DNA from: a virus
Virus record (IMG/VR): IMGVR_UViG_3300025759_000907
Coordinates: 1 to 20,460 of that record
Direction: 5' to 3' (one strand)
Length of the DNA: 20,460 nt
Both the position numbers and the translations under genes were made by a program. Numbering within the stretch: position 1 is the first letter of the stretch; each line of letters opens with the position of its first letter. This document shows, piece by piece, positions 2,572 through 19,047 of this stretch. The notes under the pieces were generated by a model. That model ran no database searches, was not told where the DNA came from, and saw only the letters and a list, made by a program, of their open reading frames with translations.

Positions 2572-2886
2572 TTAATTTTTTGGTAGTATTATATTCCACT
2601 CTAGCTTAGATAGCAAATCCTGTAAATCAATATCTTTTAGTTTATTTTCTTTTACATATTGATGTAATTCTTCTACGTCTACTATTATGTATTGATCTTT
2701 AATATCAAAGACCATTTTATCTGCTTTAGTTTTAAAACTACCTATTTTTAAATTATTTTTGATAGGTCTAAGATCAAATTTTAATTTTTGATTAAGTCTA
2801 TTTTTTAATATTCCTTCTACATCCCAAAGTTCTTTTTTTCTTTGTATAGGAGTTGCGTGTTTAATATCTGTTAAAAATTCTAACAT
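2572..2886 (-). CDS. Small phage protein of unknown function downstream of the dioxygenase cassette
   Basis: The 104-residue product is rich in Lys, Leu, Asp and Ile, with no cysteine, signal peptide or membrane segment. Its N-terminus reads MLEFLTDIKHATPIQRKKEL, followed by a WDVEGILKNRL helix and an acidic C-terminal helix (VDVEELHQYVKENKLKDID). It starts four bases after the stop of the last oxygenase gene with no visible Shine-Dalgarno, so it may be translated by reinitiation. It shares the very low GC of the cassette and could be its last member or the first gene of the hub module. I do not recognise the family. Confidence 0.65.
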   Translation of the reverse strand: MLEFLTDIKHATPIQRKKELWDVEGILKNRLNQKLKFDLRPIKNNLKIGSFKTKADKMVFDIKDQYIIVDVEELHQYVKENKLKDIDLQDLLSKLEWNIILPKN

Positions 2887-2890
2887 TTAT

Positions 2891-3460
2891 TTAAATTGTT
2901 CTTATATTAAAAGAAAGAGATATCCTGTCTTGTTTTTTATTTAAATTTGGTTCTACTCCATGCTGTAACCAACTTGGAAACAATATGAGCTCACCTTCAA
3001 TCGGACTAATTTTAAAAAAAGGACTATTTTGAGTAGTATATCTTTCAATACATTTATCCCAACTTGTTTCAATTAATTGTGAAGCCGGATTAACAAAAAA
3101 AATGTTACCTGAATTTTTTGGTACTTTTAAATAATATACACCCGAAACCACTGCGTTGCTATGACCGTGTATTAAATTATAATCTTTGTATTTATTCACA
3201 TTAGCCCACATATTTGAAATCTTAAAATTATTTTTTAATGAAATTTGATCTATGTATTGTAAAAAATATTCAGTTATTTGTTTATTTAACTCAGAAAAAA
3301 TAGGTTGTGTTAAATTAAAATCAAAAGATTGCCAACCTGTAGGATTGCTTTTATTTCTACCTTTTGATTGTTTTTTTAAATTTAAAATATATTTTAATAA
3401 TTTTTGATTATTAATATTTAAATTTTTTTTATAAATACTAATGTTAAATATATCTATCAT
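2891..3460 (-). CDS. 2OG-Fe(II) oxygenase, TIGR02466-like
   Basis: A 189-residue protein with the double-stranded beta-helix signature of 2-oxoglutarate/Fe(II) dioxygenases of the TIGR02466 type. It has an H98-x-H100 pair followed by SGVYYLKVPKNSGNIFF, then GELILFPSWLQHGVEPN with H167 as the distal metal ligand, and R179 in RISLSFNI as the likely 2OG-binding arginine. HxH in place of the commoner HxD is what I recall for this family. Such enzymes couple 2OG decarboxylation to substrate hydroxylation in the cytosol. The substrate is unknown. It overlaps the end of the carbamoyltransferase gene by 17 bases and is the last enzyme of the cassette. No clear Shine-Dalgarno is visible, and codons are strongly AT-biased. 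Confidence 0.85.
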   Translation of the reverse strand: MIDIFNISIYKKNLNINNQKLLKYILNLKKQSKGRNKSNPTGWQSFDFNLTQPIFSELNKQITEYFLQYIDQISLKNNFKISNMWANVNKYKDYNLIHGHSNAVVSGVYYLKVPKNSGNIFFVNPASQLIETSWDKCIERYTTQNSPFFKISPIEGELILFPSWLQHGVEPNLNKKQDRISLSFNIRTI

Positions 3461-4994
3461 TTTTCATTAATAATTTTTTTTCATCAGAAAAATAAACATA
3501 TTTTAATTCAGAATTTCTTAACGTATGTAAAACATTCTCAAACGTTTCAACTATAGGAAAACCTGCGAGGTTAAAAGAAGTGTTCATTAAAATAGGTATT
3601 TTAAAATTTTTTAATAGTGAATTTAATTGAAAATTATTTTTACTATTTATTGTTTGTACTCTACAAGTTCCGTCGACATGCACGATTGAAGGAGCTATAT
3701 TTTTTGTTTTTTCTTTTGCTAAAGGAGCTATCATCATAAATGAAGATTCTTCTTTTTCTTCAACATGAAAAAATGTATTAAATTTTTTTTCTAATATAGA
3801 ACATGCAAAAGGTCTAAAACTTTCTCTTTTCTTTATTGAATTCATTTTTTCTTTTGCGTTTTTTATTGTTGGGTCTAACAATAAGCTTCTATTACCCAAT
3901 GCTCTTGGACCTGCTTCTGCTTTTCCTTGTATTAAACCTACAACCTCACCTTTGTTTAAAATATTAATTATGTCTTTATTAACTATATTAGATTTTAAAT
4001 ATTCATTTTTTAATAAAGATTTATTAATCTTAATCTGTCCACCTAAAAATATGTTTTCAATAGGTTTTATTTTTTGATTGTTATTTAAGTAATGATTATA
4101 AATAGTCCCTATACAATTTCCCTCGTCTCCACATAACGGTTCAAAATACATTTTTGTTTTAGGAAATAATTTTTTTAATTTGTAATTATTTACAACGTTT
4201 AATGCTGTGCCTCCTGTAAAAACCATATTTGATGATTTAAATTTTTTTACTAATTTTTGATATCTATTTTCAAAATAAACTTGATACGTTTTAGCAGCGT
4301 CAACATTTACAGGTAACTTTTTAATTTTGTTTAATGTTAAATCTTTATTTAAATCATTTAGTAAATCTTGATTTACTTTACCGTATGATTGCAAACCCAT
4401 GAACTTTCCTTCACAGTCTTTAAAATTAAATTTTTCTGATATAAGTGCGTAAAATGTACCTAGTCCAATTTGATCAGTCATATTAATTAAAGTATTTTTA
4501 TTTACACCTGCTTCGTTAAAAGAATATTTTTTTGTAGATTTTGTTAAAGTATAAATTTCTTTATAGATGCAATTAATTTTAGATTCCTCAATATCATAAA
4601 TACTACATACTTCAAAACCTGGACCCCACTTACTACCTCTACCATCTATTACAAAAACTCTTGCTTTTTTAAATTTAGAATCAACATAAGCTTTGTAAAG
4701 ATGAGATAGGTGGTGTGGTTTAAAAAAACAATAGACCTCTTGGTCTTTTTTTAAAATATTTTTAAAATCTAAATAATGTTTTAGATTAGTTAACTCAACT
4801 TTATCCCAATCATATGAAGTAGCATAAATGTAATCTAATTTATAATTTTTAATTTGATCTATACAATTAAAAGGTATCCCACTTATTAATTTTTTTTGAG
4901 ATATTTTTGTTTCTTCATTATAATAAATTATTTTTCCATTTTTCATTAAAGTTAATGAACTAAGATGACCTATATTTATACCACAAACGATCAT
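3444..4994 (-). CDS. O-carbamoyltransferase, NodU/CmcH/TobZ family
   Basis: NodU-family enzymes use carbamoyl phosphate and ATP to form a carbamoyl-adenylate and transfer the carbamoyl group to a substrate hydroxyl. Numbering from ATG 4994 gives 516 residues, slightly shorter than the usual 550-600. The N-terminal Kae1-like domain shows GINIGHLSSLTL, the metal-binding PHHLSH motif (H94, H95, H98), VIDGRGS (D117), GGTALNVVNN and CGDEGN. The C-terminal YrdC-like domain shows QGKAEAGPRALGNRSLL, KKRESFRPFACSIL, HVDGTCRVQ and ILMNTSFNLAGFPIVET. The ATG at 4994 overlaps the upstream stop as ATGA and fits the family N-terminus. An ATG four codons earlier (5006) is possible. All key motifs look intact. 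It lies inside a run of dioxygenase genes. Confidence 0.9.
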   Translation of the reverse strand: MIVCGINIGHLSSLTLMKNGKIIYYNEETKISQKKLISGIPFNCIDQIKNYKLDYIYATSYDWDKVELTNLKHYLDFKNILKKDQEVYCFFKPHHLSHLYKAYVDSKFKKARVFVIDGRGSKWGPGFEVCSIYDIEESKINCIYKEIYTLTKSTKKYSFNEAGVNKNTLINMTDQIGLGTFYALISEKFNFKDCEGKFMGLQSYGKVNQDLLNDLNKDLTLNKIKKLPVNVDAAKTYQVYFENRYQKLVKKFKSSNMVFTGGTALNVVNNYKLKKLFPKTKMYFEPLCGDEGNCIGTIYNHYLNNNQKIKPIENIFLGGQIKINKSLLKNEYLKSNIVNKDIINILNKGEVVGLIQGKAEAGPRALGNRSLLLDPTIKNAKEKMNSIKKRESFRPFACSILEKKFNTFFHVEEKEESSFMMIAPLAKEKTKNIAPSIVHVDGTCRVQTINSKNNFQLNSLLKNFKIPILMNTSFNLAGFPIVETFENVLHTLRNSELKYVYFSDEKKLLMKNDRYI

Positions 4995-5653
4995 CGTTTG
5001 AACCATGCAGGAAGACCTACATGTGGACGTTTATCAAAAATATTTTCTTTGGCTCCTGGTGTTTTTTTATTATTATAATGCAAAAATACTTGAACACATT
5101 CATTACCTTTAAATTTATTTCTCCAATGCTCTAAATCACAACCTCTATAAACTAACATATCTCCTGGTTTTAAATCTATTTTAATTCCTTTGGTATATTC
5201 AGAATGATAACCACCATCTGATTTTAAAAACCCTTTTGTGTGATCGGGCTCTAAATATATAGGCCAAGCATCACCACCAAGATTCATGGTAGTTGATATT
5301 TCACAACTAAATCTATCTTTATGTCTTCTAAGTTCATCACCTTTTTTATAAAGTCTTGCATAAGAAGTTGCAGGATATAATTTTAATCCTGTTGCTTTTT
5401 CCATTATCGGTATGCATTTGAGTAATAATGTTTCCATAGCCATGTTTGCATATTGAGAATAAGTGTTTGGTATTTGAGCTTTAGGACCACTTTCATAATA
5501 CCCCATTATTCTTTCAAATTGTGAAAAGTATTTATATTTCATACAAGTATCATAAACTTGTTTTTGCATACGAAAATAATTTGCAATAAAAGTAGCTAGA
5601 TCATTTGATATTGCCTTACGAATAATTGTATATTTATCTTTTTTAAACGACAT
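4991..5653 (-). CDS. 2OG-Fe(II) oxygenase with HxD...H motif
   Basis: A 220-residue dioxygenase-like protein. The metal triad is visible as H111-K-D113 in RRHKDRFSCEISTTMNLGG and H176 in PGDMLVYRGCDLEHWR. The usual downstream Arg of the fold is not obvious: the expected strand reads NECVQVFLHYN, with Q188, so 2OG may be held differently. I recall phage and bacterial proteins with the same CEIS...GGDAWPIY...LEHWR layout annotated as 2OG-Fe(II) or prolyl-4-hydroxylase-like. Substrate unknown. The start ATG at 5653 has GAGG nine bases upstream, one of the few clear ribosome sites in the cassette, and the gene overlaps both neighbours (11 bases upstream, 4 bases with the carbamoyltransferase). 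Confidence 0.85.
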   Translation of the reverse strand: MSFKKDKYTIIRKAISNDLATFIANYFRMQKQVYDTCMKYKYFSQFERIMGYYESGPKAQIPNTYSQYANMAMETLLLKCIPIMEKATGLKLYPATSYARLYKKGDELRRHKDRFSCEISTTMNLGGDAWPIYLEPDHTKGFLKSDGGYHSEYTKGIKIDLKPGDMLVYRGCDLEHWRNKFKGNECVQVFLHYNNKKTPGAKENIFDKRPHVGLPAWFKR

Positions 5654-6269
5654 CTTTAGCTACCTCTTTTGGAACTGCTTGAATATTAAAATGTATAAAT
5701 CTAAATGGATCAATACCATGATCTAATACAAATTCATGTTCTAAATAACTTGGGAATATTACTAAATCTCCAGGTCTTGGCCTATAATTAATAAAGTCAC
5801 TATAGCTTGAAATATTACTATCTTTTAATTTTAGTTTAGTAGTTCTTGCACCTGTTCGAGGGTCATGAAAAATAGGGTAAGAAGTATTTTCTGAACATTT
5901 TAAAAAATAAAAACCTGATATATGTTGATTCCAATGAATATGAGCTGCGTGGTGACCACCACCATTTTTAGAAAATTCTTGAACCCACATTTCACTTAAT
6001 ATAAAAGCATAATCAGAAACCAATACATTTTGTTTTTCTAAAAGTGATATGGATTTATCACAAACATAATTTCTAAAATCTAAAAAATTATTATCATGTG
6101 TTAAAGGTGTAGAGTGATAACTTGCTCCAAAATCTTTATATTTTTTAATATATTCTTTTTCTCTATTTTTAGCTTCTTTTATATATTTATTAGTAGCTAT
6201 TGTTAGAGATTTTAAATACTCTTTTTTATTTTCAATCCAAATAGGTGTTTGAAAAAATTCACTAATCAT
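5643..6269 (-). CDS. Putative 2OG-Fe(II) oxygenase (TIGR02466-related)
   Basis: A 208-residue protein from ATG 6269, one base after the upstream stop. This start is preferred over an in-frame GTG at 6290 because MISEFFQTPIW matches the usual start of related proteins. The core reads HHAAHIHWNQHISGFYFLK, giving an H110-x-H112 pair, then PGDLVIFPSYLEHEF with H178, and DPFRFIHFNIQA with R190. This is the double-stranded beta-helix order of 2OG/Fe(II) oxygenases with HxH, as in the other TIGR02466-like gene of the cassette at 2891-3460. The two share layout but are divergent, so they are not a recent duplication. Reaction is presumably hydroxylation; the substrate is not readable. Confidence 0.82.
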   Translation of the reverse strand: MISEFFQTPIWIENKKEYLKSLTIATNKYIKEAKNREKEYIKKYKDFGASYHSTPLTHDNNFLDFRNYVCDKSISLLEKQNVLVSDYAFILSEMWVQEFSKNGGGHHAAHIHWNQHISGFYFLKCSENTSYPIFHDPRTGARTTKLKLKDSNISSYSDFINYRPRPGDLVIFPSYLEHEFVLDHGIDPFRFIHFNIQAVPKEVAKDVV

Positions 6270-6270
6270 A

Positions 6271-6903
6271 TTATTTAAATGGATATCCACAGTTCCAAAT
6301 TACTAATGAATACCTTGTTCCTTTCAATACTGGTTTTACTCTATGCCATATATAAGATGGAAATACAATAATAGAACCTTTTTTTAATATTTTTTCTGTT
6401 CTTATTACATGTAAAGATTCATCTCTTTTAGTTGGATTATAATCTCTAAAATCAAATTCTAACTCTCCGCCTTCATAATCTGATACATCACTTAGTTGAC
6501 AAGTTACAGATAACTTTCTAATTTTTCCATGTTGGTTTTTATTTTCTGGACAATTAAAAGGATGATCAAAAGTATCACGGTGCCAATCATAATATTGATT
6601 TAATTTATATTTAGTAAATTGACAATCTTCCGACCAATCCCATTGAAAATTCCAACCCGCTTTTTTATTAGCCTCATGTATATAATGATGTATTTCTTTA
6701 TAAATCCAAGCGTCATTTAACCAAACAACATTAGAATTTCTAATTTTTTTTAAATCATTTATTTTTTCTTCATCTAATGTTTTTTTACCAGTATTTGCAA
6801 TATTTCCTAAGTTTTCTTTTTTTGATAGACCATACTTTATTACTTCATCACAAAACCTAGGAGTTAGTACTGATTCGAAAAACCAAAAACTAGAGGTATT
6901 CAT
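6271..6903 (-). CDS. 2OG-Fe(II) oxygenase, prolyl-4-hydroxylase/PKHD type
   Basis: A 210-residue protein and the most canonical dioxygenase of the set. The N-terminus FFESVLTPRFCDEVIKYG matches the entry of the P4Hc domain. YDWHRDTFD supplies H108 and D110, followed by KLSVTCQLSDVSDYEGGELEF. GSIIVFPSYIWHRVKPV supplies H187 and GTRYSLVIW supplies R197, so Fe and 2OG ligands are complete. P4Hc enzymes hydroxylate proline or other residues in peptides and also small molecules, so family membership does not fix the substrate. It overlaps the preceding gene by 14 bases and ends one base before the next start, indicating tight translational coupling. No clear Shine-Dalgarno precedes the ATG. Confidence 0.9.
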   Translation of the reverse strand: MNTSSFWFFESVLTPRFCDEVIKYGLSKKENLGNIANTGKKTLDEEKINDLKKIRNSNVVWLNDAWIYKEIHHYIHEANKKAGWNFQWDWSEDCQFTKYKLNQYYDWHRDTFDHPFNCPENKNQHGKIRKLSVTCQLSDVSDYEGGELEFDFRDYNPTKRDESLHVIRTEKILKKGSIIVFPSYIWHRVKPVLKGTRYSLVIWNCGYPFK

Positions 6904-7390
6904 ACAGAATAGTTTGAATAAAATTTACTGAATTTTTTTGTTTGTTAATTATGTTGTAGAGATTTGAAGAAGGAAACATAACAAACATATTATTTTTAAG
7001 TTCAATATCAAAACAATTATTTTTTCTTCTATTATTATCGTAATAAATTTTGATATGACAATGTCTTACATCAACTCCATAAAGTAAAGTGAAGTCAGGT
7101 GAATTTCTTAAATCCATAGGACTGACATCTAACATAGGTAAAGTTGTTTCTTCTTTATATGTTTCTCCATAAGTTTCTCGTTGTACTAAAATAATATTAT
7201 GTTTTACTTTTATATGATCGGAAATATAAGTAGATAACTTATCTAAAGTCTTTGAAAAAGGAAATTTATCATTGTATAATTTAGACTGTAATATATCACT
7301 AGTTAAAACTTTCTGTTCAATTTCAAAACCTTTTGGCATTGAAACATCCCCATAATATATGACTTGTTCACTTAAAACTTTCTTTTCCAT
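6890..7390 (-). CDS. Cassette leader protein, possible ligand-less relative of the dioxygenase fold
   Basis: A 166-residue protein, first gene of the overlapping enzyme cassette. The C-terminal half (residues 100-166) has strands that mimic the dioxygenase core: DFTLLYGVDVRHCHIKIYYD, then a beta strand, then NNMFVMFPSSNLYNII where active relatives have VFPSYIWHRV, and a final VNFIQTILYEYL strand. The distal metal His is replaced (LYN instead of WHR), no HxD or HxH stands in the usual place and no Arg follows. I therefore read it as a possible non-catalytic member or partner, as an inference from motif order only. I recall cyanophage proteins of similar layout but not their function. The ATG at 7390 lacks a Shine-Dalgarno and follows a 58-bp AT-rich gap. 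Confidence 0.7.
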   Translation of the reverse strand: MEKKVLSEQVIYYGDVSMPKGFEIEQKVLTSDILQSKLYNDKFPFSKTLDKLSTYISDHIKVKHNIILVQRETYGETYKEETTLPMLDVSPMDLRNSPDFTLLYGVDVRHCHIKIYYDNNRRKNNCFDIELKNNMFVMFPSSNLYNIINKQKNSVNFIQTILYEYL

Positions 7391-7448: not shown

Positions 7449-7892
7449 CTATTTTGGATTAGTTAACAAAACCCAATTTTGATCGTTTTCATTCCAATCA
7501 TAACTATAATCATTATTTTGATCATTTTCTTGTTCAGGTGTCAAAGCTGGTGGTTGTCCTATAGTAGGTTCCCATTTTGCTAATGTTGTATTTTTTACCC
7601 AAGATACATATGGTTTAGGTGGCCAAAATATTTGATTTTCTGAATCCCAAGTGTAACCTACGCCTGCATAGTTTCCTCTAAATGCTCTTGAATTATCTCC
7701 TGATCTATGTTGATTATGAAACGTATTAAAAGAAGTTTTAATCCATAAATGTGATGGCCAATTATTATGTGTTTGTAAATGCTGTTGTCCTAAAGATTCA
7801 TCTTCTATTCCATTGTTTAATAAAATATCATCACTTAAAGTAACAACTTGTAATACTTCATTTTCTTCAGATATTTTTGCAAAATGTGCCAT
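7449..7892 (-). CDS. Conserved phage protein of the MAHFAK type, tail-module associated
   Basis: A 147-residue protein starting MAHFAKISEENEVLQVV, with a central FRGNYAGVGYTWDSENQIFWPPKPYVSW segment and a Trp/Asp/Asn-rich tail (YSYDWNENDQNWVLL). I recall proteins with this exact architecture (MAHFAKV..., AGIGYTYD, PPQPYPSW) in many cyanophages and other marine phages, usually next to tail-fibre genes and without an assigned function. There is no signal peptide or membrane helix. It starts one base after the stop of the glycine-rich fibre gene, with a weak GGAT-type site, and ends at the AT-rich gap before the enzyme cassette. A role as a small virion or fibre-associated protein is inferred from position. 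Confidence 0.8.
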   Translation of the reverse strand: MAHFAKISEENEVLQVVTLSDDILLNNGIEDESLGQQHLQTHNNWPSHLWIKTSFNTFHNQHRSGDNSRAFRGNYAGVGYTWDSENQIFWPPKPYVSWVKNTTLAKWEPTIGQPPALTPEQENDQNNDYSYDWNENDQNWVLLTNPK

Positions 7893-7893
7893 A

Positions 7894-8727
7894 TTAAGCT
7901 ATCCTATATCTTATTATAACTATCCCAGAACAACCAGCAACACCTTGACAAGTTCCACCAAATCCACTGTTTGCTCTTGGTGAAATTGAGTCAGGAGTTC
8001 CTTGACCTGATCTACCTCCACAAGCATATTTTCTTGATGTTCCATCAATACTATTAGTAACTCCAGTAACACCTGATCTAGGACTTGCTCCCGCTGCACC
8101 GGCTCCACCACCTTGACGACCTTCTGGACCAGAACTTTCTCCATTGTTTCCTTGAGGTGGACTTACAGGAGGTGTGTTTCCAGTTCCTCCAGCTACAGGA
8201 GTAGCAGGTGGGCCTCCAGATGATCCTCCTCCCGAACCTCCTGGTCCTCCAGGACCTGTTCCTGATGGTACAGATGCTCCAAAACCACCACCTGCTCCAG
8301 TTAAACCTAATGCTGATGATGGACTACCATTACTCGCTGGATAATAAGGACCTACAGGATTTACTGGTCCACCAGCTCCACCAGCACCTATTGTTACTGG
8401 GTAAGTAGTAACTGGTGTTGGTACATTAGAACCTTGAAGTGGTGCGGGTCCACAACCTGCAGCTCTATAACCACCGGCTCCGCCTGCCCCTCCATATCCA
8501 TATCCCATACCACCGCCGCCACCGACGATTAAATATTCTACTTCATTACCTGTTGGGTCAGTTGATGCTTCTGTTACTTCAAATGTTCCAGGGCTTGTAA
8601 ATGTATGAATTTTATAATCTCCTGATTCTGTTATAGTGCCACCTGTTGCTGTCATAGGTTTAAAACCTGCGCCGCCACGGCCAAATCCTCTTGCTGAGCT
8701 TGCTCCAAATGAACCTAATGTTGGCAT
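7894..8727 (-). CDS. Glycine-rich tail fibre / host-recognition protein
   Basis: A 277-residue protein. Residues 24-66 form a beta-strand lead-in (GDYKIHTFTSPGTFEVTEAS and EVEYLIVGGGGGMG), followed by a long low-complexity glycine/proline/serine region (about 68-265) and the closing strand CSGIVIIRYRIA. This arrangement is typical of phage fibre tips with the glycine-rich domain (PF21722-like as I recall), where a polyglycine-II-type bundle exposes variable loops for receptor binding. The G+C of the gene is locally higher because of Gly and Pro codons. Four cysteines (92, 236, 260, 266) are present. Collagen-like stretches such as GTGPGGPGGSGGG and TPPVSPPQG lie close to a downstream prolyl-hydroxylase-like gene. 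AGGAGG precedes the ATG. Confidence 0.85.
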   Translation of the reverse strand: MPTLGSFGASSARGFGRGGAGFKPMTATGGTITESGDYKIHTFTSPGTFEVTEASTDPTGNEVEYLIVGGGGGMGYGYGGAGGAGGYRAAGCGPAPLQGSNVPTPVTTYPVTIGAGGAGGPVNPVGPYYPASNGSPSSALGLTGAGGGFGASVPSGTGPGGPGGSGGGSSGGPPATPVAGGTGNTPPVSPPQGNNGESSGPEGRQGGGAGAAGASPRSGVTGVTNSIDGTSRKYACGGRSGQGTPDSISPRANSGFGGTCQGVAGCSGIVIIRYRIA

Positions 8728-9860: not shown

Positions 9861-11663
9861 TTAAGCGGCTGTGTCAATCTCATTCCAAGTGACACTAGTT
9901 CCGGTAGAAACTTCAGTATAAGCTACAGATGTTCCTGTGTCAACAATTTGCCATGCTTGAATATTAGCATTTCCAACTGTTATATTTGCTTGTATTCCAG
10001 TTGGGAAAACTTCTGCCGAAGCACCTGCTACTGCACTATTTAAACTAGTATCTAACTGTTGTCCAGTAATACTTGCAATAGTTACTGCCTCTAATTCAGC
10101 TTGTCCTTGACCTAATCCTAGAGCAATTCTAGGTATATCAGAACCTGTTGAATTAACGATATTTGTAGAACCATTTGCACCGTCAAAATGAAGTAAAGAA
10201 ATAGTATTTCCATCTGCCGTAAATGCTGAAGTAGGAGGTGTAAAGGTTGTTGTATATCTTGCAATATCCGAAGATCTAAACTCATCTATATAGCCATTAA
10301 AGAATTGAGTTTCACCTTCGTTTGTTCCTATTTTATAAGATTGACCTGGATAACTATCTCCACCTGTAGTGTACTGAAGTTTAGCACTTCCATTAATATA
10401 TAAAGTTAAAAGAGTTGCGTTTTGTACTAATGCAAAATGGTTCCATTGATTATTATTGAGACTAGGTGAACTTGTTTGTGCAACAATTGTATTATCTTGA
10501 ATTAATCTTAGTTGTCCAAATTGTGTAAGTGAAAATGCAAAACCTTGACTAGATAAAGAGTTATCCCATAGATATGCATCTTGTGCAAAGTTGGAAGCAT
10601 ATGCAAAAAATTCTATTGTAAAGTCATCTTGAACAACACTTGTAGCTGTTGATTGTACAAAGTCTCCCGTTCCATCTAATAATAAAGATGAAGGTCCAAA
10701 TTTAGCTTGAGCTGTAGATAATTGAGCATCAGCTTCAGCTGTAAATGTTGGTAATATATCATTATTAATTACAACATTAGCATCTCCTTGAACAACTGAT
10801 CCTAAAGCAACTCCTGCAGTTAAACCAATACCAACAACTGTAGCATCTGGACTAGGATCTACTGTTCCTTCAGCTGCTGTTAATTCATTACCTGTTACAG
10901 CTGCAAAAGTTTTAATATCTACATCTGTAACAGATATTCCACCCCATTCATAAGTTCCCCAAGTTAATTCTCCCCAAGCTTCTTGTTCGCCTGAAGATAC
11001 ACCTAAATCAAAACCTGTTAGTGATACTGAAGTCCAAATACCTTGAGCACCCCAAACCTCAGTGCCCCAATCATCTCTACCCCAACCTTGTTCATTAAAT
11101 GCTGTAACTGTACCAACACCAACATTTAATTGTTGACCTGTAGCTTCTGCATCAGGTTCAGCATCTACTGTTCCTTCTGCTACTGTTAGATTTGGTAATG
11201 GGTTTTCACTTAAGAAAATTTCTGTTGCTGTAATAATTAATGGATCACCGGTAGATAAATTTACTTGTTCGCCTAAAAGTTCTGGTTGAACATCAATAGT
11301 AACTGACCCAGTTCCTACACCTACATCTAAACCTATACCTGTAATTAAAACATCACCTTGGATACCCCAAGCGTTTTCACCAAAAGTTAATCTTCCCCAA
11401 CCTGAATTAATTTCACCGGAGATACCAACATTGTTTAATGAAGAATTTAATCCAAGACCAGTTAGTGAAACTGTTCTGTTTTCGTAATTTGCATTCCAAG
11501 AAAGACTACCCCAACTTGATCTACCCCAACCATCAACAGGTACAAATTGAGCACCACCTGGAGTAGGCATAGAAAGCCCTTGACCAGAAAGTGAAACTAC
11601 TGCATCACTTTGTTGACCCCAATCACCTATGCCCCAAGTATTTTCACCCCAAGCGTTAGCCAT
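9861..11663 (-). CDS. Tail fibre/adhesin with WG triads and a LamG-like domain
   Basis: A 600-residue virion-type protein. Five aromatic-glycine triads at five-residue pitch occur at W5/W10/W15, W46/W51/W56, W89/F94/W99, W194/W199/W204 and W230/W235/W240. Between them run divergent TGxxL-x-VGxGTV repeats (for example TGQQLNVGVGTVTAF and TGNELTAAEGTVDPSPDA). Residues about 320-485 form a concanavalin-A/LamG-like lectin domain with DDFTIEFFAYAS, QWNHFALVQN, LTLYINGSAKL, NGYIDEFRSSDIARYT and FTPPTSAF. The C-terminus repeats TGTSVAYTEV / TGTSVTWNEI. LamG domains bind carbohydrate, so a receptor-binding or virion-adhesin role is likely. The Shine-Dalgarno lies in a small hairpin next to the start. 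Confidence 0.85.
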   Translation of the reverse strand: MANAWGENTWGIGDWGQQSDAVVSLSGQGLSMPTPGGAQFVPVDGWGRSSWGSLSWNANYENRTVSLTGLGLNSSLNNVGISGEINSGWGRLTFGENAWGIQGDVLITGIGLDVGVGTGSVTIDVQPELLGEQVNLSTGDPLIITATEIFLSENPLPNLTVAEGTVDAEPDAEATGQQLNVGVGTVTAFNEQGWGRDDWGTEVWGAQGIWTSVSLTGFDLGVSSGEQEAWGELTWGTYEWGGISVTDVDIKTFAAVTGNELTAAEGTVDPSPDATVVGIGLTAGVALGSVVQGDANVVINNDILPTFTAEADAQLSTAQAKFGPSSLLLDGTGDFVQSTATSVVQDDFTIEFFAYASNFAQDAYLWDNSLSSQGFAFSLTQFGQLRLIQDNTIVAQTSSPSLNNNQWNHFALVQNATLLTLYINGSAKLQYTTGGDSYPGQSYKIGTNEGETQFFNGYIDEFRSSDIARYTTTFTPPTSAFTADGNTISLLHFDGANGSTNIVNSTGSDIPRIALGLGQGQAELEAVTIASITGQQLDTSLNSAVAGASAEVFPTGIQANITVGNANIQAWQIVDTGTSVAYTEVSTGTSVTWNEIDTAA

Positions 11664-18561: not shown

Positions 18562-19047
18562 TTAAATGTAATGCAATACAGATTCTGGGTCTTTAACAGT
18601 ACCTAGAACCTCATCGTCGTTGAGAAGACGAACTTCACCGCCTTCTATTGGTAGTCTTGAACCAGCATATCTGGCAAAGATGACCCAATCTTTTTCCTTA
18701 CACCAAGGACCTGTTTCAAACTTATCTTTGTCTTTATAACAAAGAGGTCCCATCTTTAAAACATAACCACAGTTTGTAACCATTCTAGCTTTGTCTAAAG
18801 ATTCTTGTGAAAATATAATTCCACCTTTAGTTTTTTCTTTTGGTGTAAAAGGTAAAACTAACATTCTCCATCCTGATGGTTCAGGTAACTGTTCCATCAT
18901 TTCTCCAATGTTATTTTCGTCTAACCTTTTTGATTCTTCTACTGATTTTACTTTATCTTGCTCTTTGTATTTTTCTTCAAGAGCTAGTTTCGTCTTCGGA
19001 ATCTCTTTGTCCGAATTTGACGACGTTTGTTGTGTCTGGTTGCTCAT
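18562..19047 (-). CDS. GroES-like co-chaperonin
   Basis: A 161-residue protein whose residues about 53-161 match the Cpn10 fold: EPSGWRMLVLPFTPKEKTKG, then GGIIFS (mobile loop, residues 67-80), ARMVTNCGYVLKMGPLCY, KDWVIFARYAGSRLP and RLLNDDEVLGTVKDP. Host GroES is about 97 residues, and this one has an extra 50-residue charged N-terminal extension and a Cys-containing insertion (residues 94-116). Like T4 gp31, it could replace or retarget host GroES so that GroEL folds the coat protein. No GroEL gene is visible. The ATG at 19047 has AGGAGG with good spacing, which puts the first 71 bases inside the end of the preceding gene. Confidence 0.85.
   Translation of the reverse strand: MSNQTQQTSSNSDKEIPKTKLALEEKYKEQDKVKSVEESKRLDENNIGEMMEQLPEPSGWRMLVLPFTPKEKTKGGIIFSQESLDKARMVTNCGYVLKMGPLCYKDKDKFETGPWCKEKDWVIFARYAGSRLPIEGGEVRLLNDDEVLGTVKDPESVLHYI

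Follow-up and report, generated by a model that had tools for sequence, protein, structure and literature searches.

The closest described counterparts of the locus examined here come from marine phages. In HTVC023P-type phages, genes for 2-oxoglutarate (2OG)-Fe(II) oxygenases are co-located with a 'ferrochelatase' gene according to passages of one study (PMC9599517), and in T4-like cyanophages 2OG oxygenases, a prnA halogenase, a Nol carbamoyltransferase and T4-GC 615, with a 'ferrochetalase domain', have been discussed one by one, as genes of host-like character and for their effect on 2OG levels (PMC3037559). A phage carbamoyltransferase that acts on 5-hydroxymethylcytosine (5hmC) is linked to thymidylate-synthase homologues (PMC8670742). 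Here we analyse computationally a 20,460-base virus record (IMGVR_UViG_3300025759_000907, positions 1–20,460; hereafter the window), in which six genes on the minus strand between positions 2891 and 7390, named F, E, D, C, B and A in transcription order, bring 2OG oxygenases and a carbamoyltransferase together in a tail module. We put at roughly 0.5 the probability that this block, which lies in the tail operon of a pelagiphage of HTVC023P type, is a modular tailoring cassette with enzymes that act on a virion protein.

The window shares the genes E, D and C with the HTVC023P-type group and belongs to the same type of phage. In the passages of that study found in our search, gene C is read as a ferrochelatase, the carbamoyltransferase, halogenase and sulfotransferase considered below go unmentioned and no tailoring of the tail is proposed (PMC9599517). 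The T4-like accessory genes represent the same enzyme classes as the window cassette, but in another phage family and another gene order. The 5hmC enzyme is phage-encoded and belongs to the same superfamily as B, but carries I/C/T at three positions where B has L/G/R. Parts of the cassette have been noted earlier; in a limited search of the open-access literature, with subscription papers and preprints outside its reach, we found none that describes it as a whole.

Enzymes of the block

The initial annotation had proposed four dioxygenase-like genes, a ligand-less relative and a NodU-type carbamoyltransferase in one overlapping or abutting block, and families, ligands and motifs, which were computed here together with folds, gene order, position and cargo exchange, bear this out. 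All five junctions overlap (F/E by 14, E/D by 20, D/C by 11, C/B by 16 and B/A by 17 nt). E (6271–6903) is a P4Hc/PKHD-like 2OG/Fe(II) oxygenase that matches PF13640 (3.6e-16), with PKHD-type hydroxylases among its relatives and its PDB matches. Its HxD..H metal ligands are H108, D110 and H187 (93–97% conserved in 216 sequences), and these together with the 2OG-binding residue R197 are conserved at 91–97%. A (2891–3460) matches PF13759 (1.7e-24; 86.5 bits against a family cut-off of 27) and lies above the curated cut-off of TIGR02466; D (5643–6290) matches PF13759 (3.2e-16; 60 bits, same cut-off) and scores 55.5 bits against TIGR02466, just below the cut-off of 62.5. Both lack the canonical HxD...H triad and have instead an HxH..H set (H98/H100/H167 in A, H117/H119/H185 in D) that is present in 96–99% of 114 and 190 homologues, respectively. 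Such a three-histidine set, seen in about 300 homologues of PF13759/TIGR02466 type, is unusual for 2OG oxygenases. Overall, the metal ligands of A, C, D and E are kept in 93–99% of homologues (n = 114–216).

Gene C (4991–5653) matches phrog_2954 (1e-46), with no Pfam match at 0.1 and no NCBIfam match, and is usually labelled 'ferrochelatase'. Its AlphaFold2 (AF2) model (predicted local distance difference test, pLDDT, 72) has the double-stranded beta-helix fold; the best structural matches are all 2OG oxygenases, with SnoN at Z 14.3 over 191 residues (VIA). The HxD..H ligands H111, D113 and H176 and the residue R178 occur in 96–98% of 189 homologues, and the three ligands are invariant among 31 sequences, cyanophages included. 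We rejected a ferrochelatase identity, for which no profile match was found, and because of the predicted fold and the ligands the label is unsupported. Small proteins that match 2OG oxygenases by profile or fold also carry the labels 'DNA endonuclease V' (phrog_274) and 'DNA endonuclease' (phrog_2297); together with that of phrog_2954 these labels have probably misled annotation in many marine phages.

For F (6890–7390) no match was found in family searches and profile–profile comparison with other families was likewise empty, so that structure prediction was needed. The AF2 model (pLDDT 79) has a 2OG-oxygenase fold, with 2rg4 as top structural match (Z 13.6) and prolyl hydroxylases at Z about 12 (12.3 for a prolyl 4-hydroxylase, P4H). 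None of the histidines is invariant or near-invariant among 38 homologues. Judged from the modelled fold, F is therefore a conserved pseudo-oxygenase, in agreement with its earlier description as a ligand-less relative. F and C also match in structure a viral P4H-type 2OG oxygenase, the collagen prolyl hydroxylase of chlorella virus PBCV-1 (5c5t). To our knowledge the PBCV-1 protein is a lone enzyme, without swappable accessory tailoring enzymes.

B (3444–5006) matches PF16861 (6.5e-49), PF02543 (1.8e-17) and phrog_1601 (4e-109). With its Carbam_trans_N and Carbam_trans_C domains and intact HHxxH and E-x-GPRALGNRS motifs, it is an O-carbamoyltransferase of the NodU/TobZ type, and GdmN and TobZ are among its relatives in the PDB. 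NodU is the closest NCBIfam model, and the score of B against the NodU equivalog NF041651 (120 bits) lies below the curated cut-off of 1000. B resembles TobZ, GdmN and NodU in both motifs and both domains, but its N-terminal domain is strongly diverged and its context is a phage.

These assignments bear on proposals in earlier papers (PMC3037559, PMC9599517, PMC9146016) that such genes are unrelated metabolic helpers, which draw down 2OG in nitrogen metabolism, make haem through the 'ferrochelatase', supply pyrimidines through the carbamoyltransferase and give 'cell protection' through the halogenase. C has the fold and ligands of a 2OG oxygenase rather than those of a ferrochelatase, B is a TobZ-type enzyme and not an aspartate carbamoyltransferase, and genes of general metabolism would not be expected to keep strictly to a single tail slot in which tailoring enzymes are swapped; we regard this explanation as very improbable.

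Conserved oxygenase core and exchangeable cargo

Among sequenced phages the nearest are Pelagibacter phage HTVC023P and 023Pt_psg01, and both carry genes in the order G-F-E-D-C between fibre-like genes and a hub gene. G (7449–7892 in the window, minus strand; phrog_7759) is a 147-aa tail-module protein that forms the conserved 5' flank of the cassette, and the hub (612–2549, minus; phrog_3287; PDB 9nwi_Y, 4e-9) is a virion structural protein at its 3' border. The earlier placement of the block in a tail module, between fibre-like genes and a hub, thus holds, and the hub was identified here as a virion structural protein, not specifically as P22 gp10-like. F, E, D and C of HTVC023P are 59–80% identical to those of the window; 023Pt_psg01 has an additional small oxygenase gene between F and E. 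The same gene order recurs in well over 100 contigs in IMG/VR scans with C and F, and because of this recurrence and that in HTVC023P the cassette is not a chance arrangement. A genome-wide search of the two phages found no carbamoyltransferase. Since HTVC023P has G-F-E-D-C without it, what is conserved is the oxygenase block, to which the carbamoyltransferase is an optional addition. When slots were found by means of G alone, F and E were present in all 33 usable ones and C in 32; a carbamoyltransferase was present in one, and any of halogenase, carbamoyltransferase and sulfotransferase in five. The block also occurs on a contig of a single-cell SAR11 assembly (L330), which fits a SAR11 host for these phages. 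SAR11 are the most abundant bacteria of the ocean.

For comparison, we defined the slot as the interval from G to the hub and dereplicated the collection to 70 slots (hub proteins <90% identical). Cassette genes served as seeds of the scans, which took only the nearest 80 loci, so the frequencies are biased and measure association, not frequency in the population. Of 470 slot genes 287 encode 2OG oxygenases; outside the slots, these contigs have 2 among 444 genes. Gene order is fluid (62 distinct orders among 70 slots) and packing is tight, with 361 of 394 same-strand neighbours overlapping or lying ≤20 nt apart. G lies upstream of F in 45 of the 52 slots that bear F, and E directly follows F in 44 of them, which makes an E–F pair likely; by analogy with known pairs of active and inactive oxygenases, F is probably a non-catalytic partner of E.

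In other contigs the slot holds a tryptophan-halogenase homologue (PF04820, 5e-112), sulfotransferases (PF13469; NoeE is the sole NCBIfam model matched, weakly) and several more small 2OG oxygenases. The halogenase alignment retains the flavin adenine dinucleotide motif GxGxxG, WxWxIP, the catalytic Lys and the PLES-type motif, as in flavin-dependent tryptophan halogenases. A 2OG gene lies within 3 kb at 72/80 halogenase loci (control 8%), 33/36 sulfotransferase loci (control 1%) and 42/81 carbamoyltransferase loci (control 14%). Because a halogenase or a sulfotransferase can fill the slot, the combination of dioxygenases and carbamoyltransferase in the window is one snapshot of an interchangeable toolkit.

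Several slots hold further genes worth recording. Directly 3' of one slot sulfotransferase (L274, 8390–9113) are a small P-loop kinase and an HxGH nucleotidylyltransferase, for which cofactor supply is possible and the assignment uncertain. We do not claim the pair as makers of 3'-phosphoadenosine 5'-phosphosulfate, as the kinase is marginal to APS_kinase (21.8 against 21.1 bits) with other P-loop families scoring higher, and the nearest relatives of the nucleotidylyltransferase are nicotinamide mononucleotide adenylyltransferases. The slot of L294 encodes (5392–5955, minus) a 188-aa protein that has a DHHHD motif, matches no family and could be a further tailoring enzyme. Greip EXVC021P was considered as an empty slot and rejected: its hub and G adjoin but in reversed order, so that it offers no clean empty site.

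The carbamoyltransferase is swappable cargo. When used alone as scan query, B returned one relative, and family alignments were used instead. One contig (L003) has a carbamoyltransferase with 96.1% protein and 95.9% DNA identity to B and changes at 7% of four-fold sites, whereas the genes around it show 49–74% protein identity and 26–58% of four-fold sites changed relative to the window. Since even strong purifying selection on the protein would leave four-fold sites unprotected, this argues that B passed as a unit between phages that had already diverged, and from the sequences we conclude that the exchange was recent. In the carbamoyltransferase tree, B falls within a supported set of 12, 11 of them linked to the cassette, and the cassette setting has switched at least four times. 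A C-family gene lies within 6 kb at merely 13 of the 81 carbamoyltransferase loci. As a class, carbamoyltransferases are tied to oxygenases generally, and just a subset is in this cassette. The linkage that the initial annotation had proposed to check is therefore conserved for the oxygenase block but confined to a subset for the carbamoyltransferase, which does not stand as a fixed partner.

These observations could also mean that the slot is a hot spot for accessory genes in which the carbamoyltransferase is an unrelated passenger beside the oxygenases, as its minority status, its recent lateral exchange and its changes of setting would suggest. The identified cargo, however, consists almost entirely of tailoring enzymes, with a few unassigned genes and one HNH-like endonuclease, and it has preferred places: the halogenase is directly 3' of E in 18 of 30 slots and the sulfotransferase usually follows G. 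Moreover, slots with a carbamoyltransferase carry more 2OG genes (4.9 against 3.95 without it, p = 0.0035), and we consider a mere hot spot unlikely. The same excess keeps the earlier proposal of hydroxylation followed by carbamoylation plausible. A specific oxygenase partner for B was sought and rejected: a small 160-aa family alone was mildly enriched (p = 0.04, uncorrected).

Candidate substrates

Similar tail-side neighbourhoods were found in P-RSM4, S-CAM8, Syn9, HTVC008M, Sf-CH11 and HTVC033P, and in the first five, which are T4-like, the same enzyme classes adjoin fibre genes; HTVC008M has the core plus a halogenase. Among T4-like cyanophages and pelagimyophages, C homologues lie 0.1–0.6 kb from G homologues in all five species in which both were found, within 7 kb of a halogenase in all seven species examined and, in four of eight, no further than about 1 kb from a carbamoyltransferase. 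Tentatively, and with somewhat less confidence than for the window itself, we suggest that several unrelated marine phage groups may tailor their tails or fibres post-translationally in a modular way, with an oxygenase core, a dead partner and an exchangeable slot, and may so diversify the receptor-binding surface chemically and not by sequence.

The tail-operon location in several phage groups, the conserved company of G and the matches of F, C and E to peptide and prolyl hydroxylases, among others, indicate that the substrate is probably a tail or fibre protein, with G itself as a candidate. The core that is conserved reads G-F-E-(D)-C, and the interval from G to the hub leaves room for exchangeable cargo, here B and elsewhere a flavin-dependent halogenase or a sulfotransferase. 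The mechanism that we infer covers the protein substrate, the F–E pairing, the order of reactions and their purpose. The four oxygenases (E, C, D and A) would most likely add hydroxyls to the side chains of a protein of the same region, either G or a glycine-rich or LamG-type fibre protein, and the likeliest role of F is to assist E as a scaffold or as an adaptor for the substrate. From carbamoyl phosphate and ATP, B would transfer a carbamoyl group to a hydroxyl that an oxygenase may have made, so that oxygenases and carbamoyltransferase may share a substrate. Swaps of cargo would then alter the chemistry of the surface that contacts the receptor.

Several points weigh against such tailoring of a virion protein, in addition to the seeded sampling of slots. 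In tests on G no substrate residue was identified and none co-varied convincingly with cargo, and the amino-acid composition of G does not differ between halogenase-positive and halogenase-negative slots. A C-terminal Tyr motif in G is weakly associated with the sulfotransferase (p = 0.06 in a set not examined beforehand; p = 0.009 once sets were pooled and dereplicated). Many carbamoyltransferases sit away from the cassette, the T4-like cases are not independent because synteny is shared among these phages, and adjacency to fibre genes is no proof of a fibre target. On one T4-like contig (L344, 5197–6804) an E–C pair directly follows a uvsY-like gene, a setting that is not tied to fibres; this contig also has two halogenase genes.

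If the target lies outside the virion, for instance in a small molecule or in glycans or lipids of the host surface, its modification could serve to exclude competitor phages or to alter that surface. In one version, sugars would receive O-carbamoyl and sulfo groups, in the way that Nod factors do from NodU and NoeE. The characterised NodU, TobZ and GdmN enzymes have sugars and small molecules as acceptors, and for this reason glycan or small-molecule targets stay in consideration. The PDB relatives of B, and the NodU and (weak) NoeE models as best NCBIfam matches of the carbamoyltransferase and the sulfotransferase, point the same way. So does Pelagibacter phage Mosig EXVC030M, whose carbamoyltransferase gene shares an island with genes for aminotransferases and an epimerase. 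This island (L167, 200–20000) comprises about 25 biosynthetic-looking genes beside a very long VrlC-like gene, among them also molybdenum-cofactor/radical S-adenosylmethionine-like, methyltransferase and nitroreductase genes. A cellular homologue of C, from Brasilonema sp. CT11 (L345, NZ_JABXYX010000049.1; 223 aa, 38% identity), is flanked by nonribosomal peptide synthetase (NRPS) and NRPS–polyketide synthase genes and adjoins a luciferase-like monooxygenase; it is possibly a tailoring oxygenase of a cyanobacterial natural product. This locus can be counted for a small-molecule target and is at the same time a hint of amino-acid substrates. In the slots, however, neither scaffold-making enzymes nor glycosyltransferases were recognised, and the genes are embedded among tail structural genes in several phage groups. 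We therefore see a non-virion target as a less likely explanation, yet the most serious of the alternatives.

DNA hypermodification, in which an oxygenase would yield a hydroxymethyl-pyrimidine and the carbamoyltransferase 5-carbamoyloxymethylcytosine, has a precedent in a phage carbamoyltransferase that does so in vitro (PMC8670742), and passages of another study report genes of this kind elsewhere in HTVC023P-type genomes (PMC9599517). The hydroxymethylase/thymidylate synthase family PF00303 was not found in four complete related phage genomes (the window being a fragment). At TobZ positions 408/421/423, which PMC8670742 singles out (mapped from its text), B has L/G/R where the tested 5hmC enzyme has I/C/T; at the last two, G and R replace the C and T of the DNA enzyme in all 100 carbamoyltransferases examined, B included, as in ordinary O-carbamoyltransferases, and that enzyme is an extreme outlier on a very long branch of the tree. 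As the initial annotation had recognised, the oxygenases are not TET/JBP-like: in a Pfam search none of those in the window belonged to this family (a PF12851 search matched no control either, and its negative has no weight). The genes, moreover, lie in the tail module and not in a replication module. The 5hmC target raised earlier is thus disfavoured, and we rate modification of DNA as improbable.

Neighbouring genes and implications

The structural genes of the window are on the minus strand, and the cassette is flanked by fibre-like genes upstream and by the hub gene downstream. A 600-aa fibre-like protein is encoded at 9861–11663 (minus), with residues ~300–508 forming a stretch common to virion and baseplate-wedge proteins, and a 277-aa glycine-rich fibre-like protein (7894–8727, minus; PF21722, Gly_rich_2) lies 5' of G. 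Between A and the hub is H (2572–2886), a 104-aa protein with no family match that is present in 14 of the 70 slots. With 23–30% G+C across 2572–7390, the cassette lies below both the hub gene (37%) and the window as a whole (34%), as would fit accessory genes that were acquired. Further along the window (18562–19047) is a GroES-type co-chaperonin (phrog_3188), which is also annotated in 023Pt_psg01.

2OG oxygenases, 'ferrochelatases', tryptophan-halogenases and Nol-like carbamoyltransferases are common auxiliary genes of marine phages, each with a metabolic story of its own. The gene maps presented here show such genes forming one interchangeable toolkit beside tail genes, and this suggests a chemical decoration by the phages of their tail or of some other molecule that they use at infection. 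The natural substrate of viral halogenases and the role of phage 2OG oxygenases thereby merge into one testable hypothesis; as HTVC023P and HTVC008M are cultured, and their host is too, it can be tested directly on virions.

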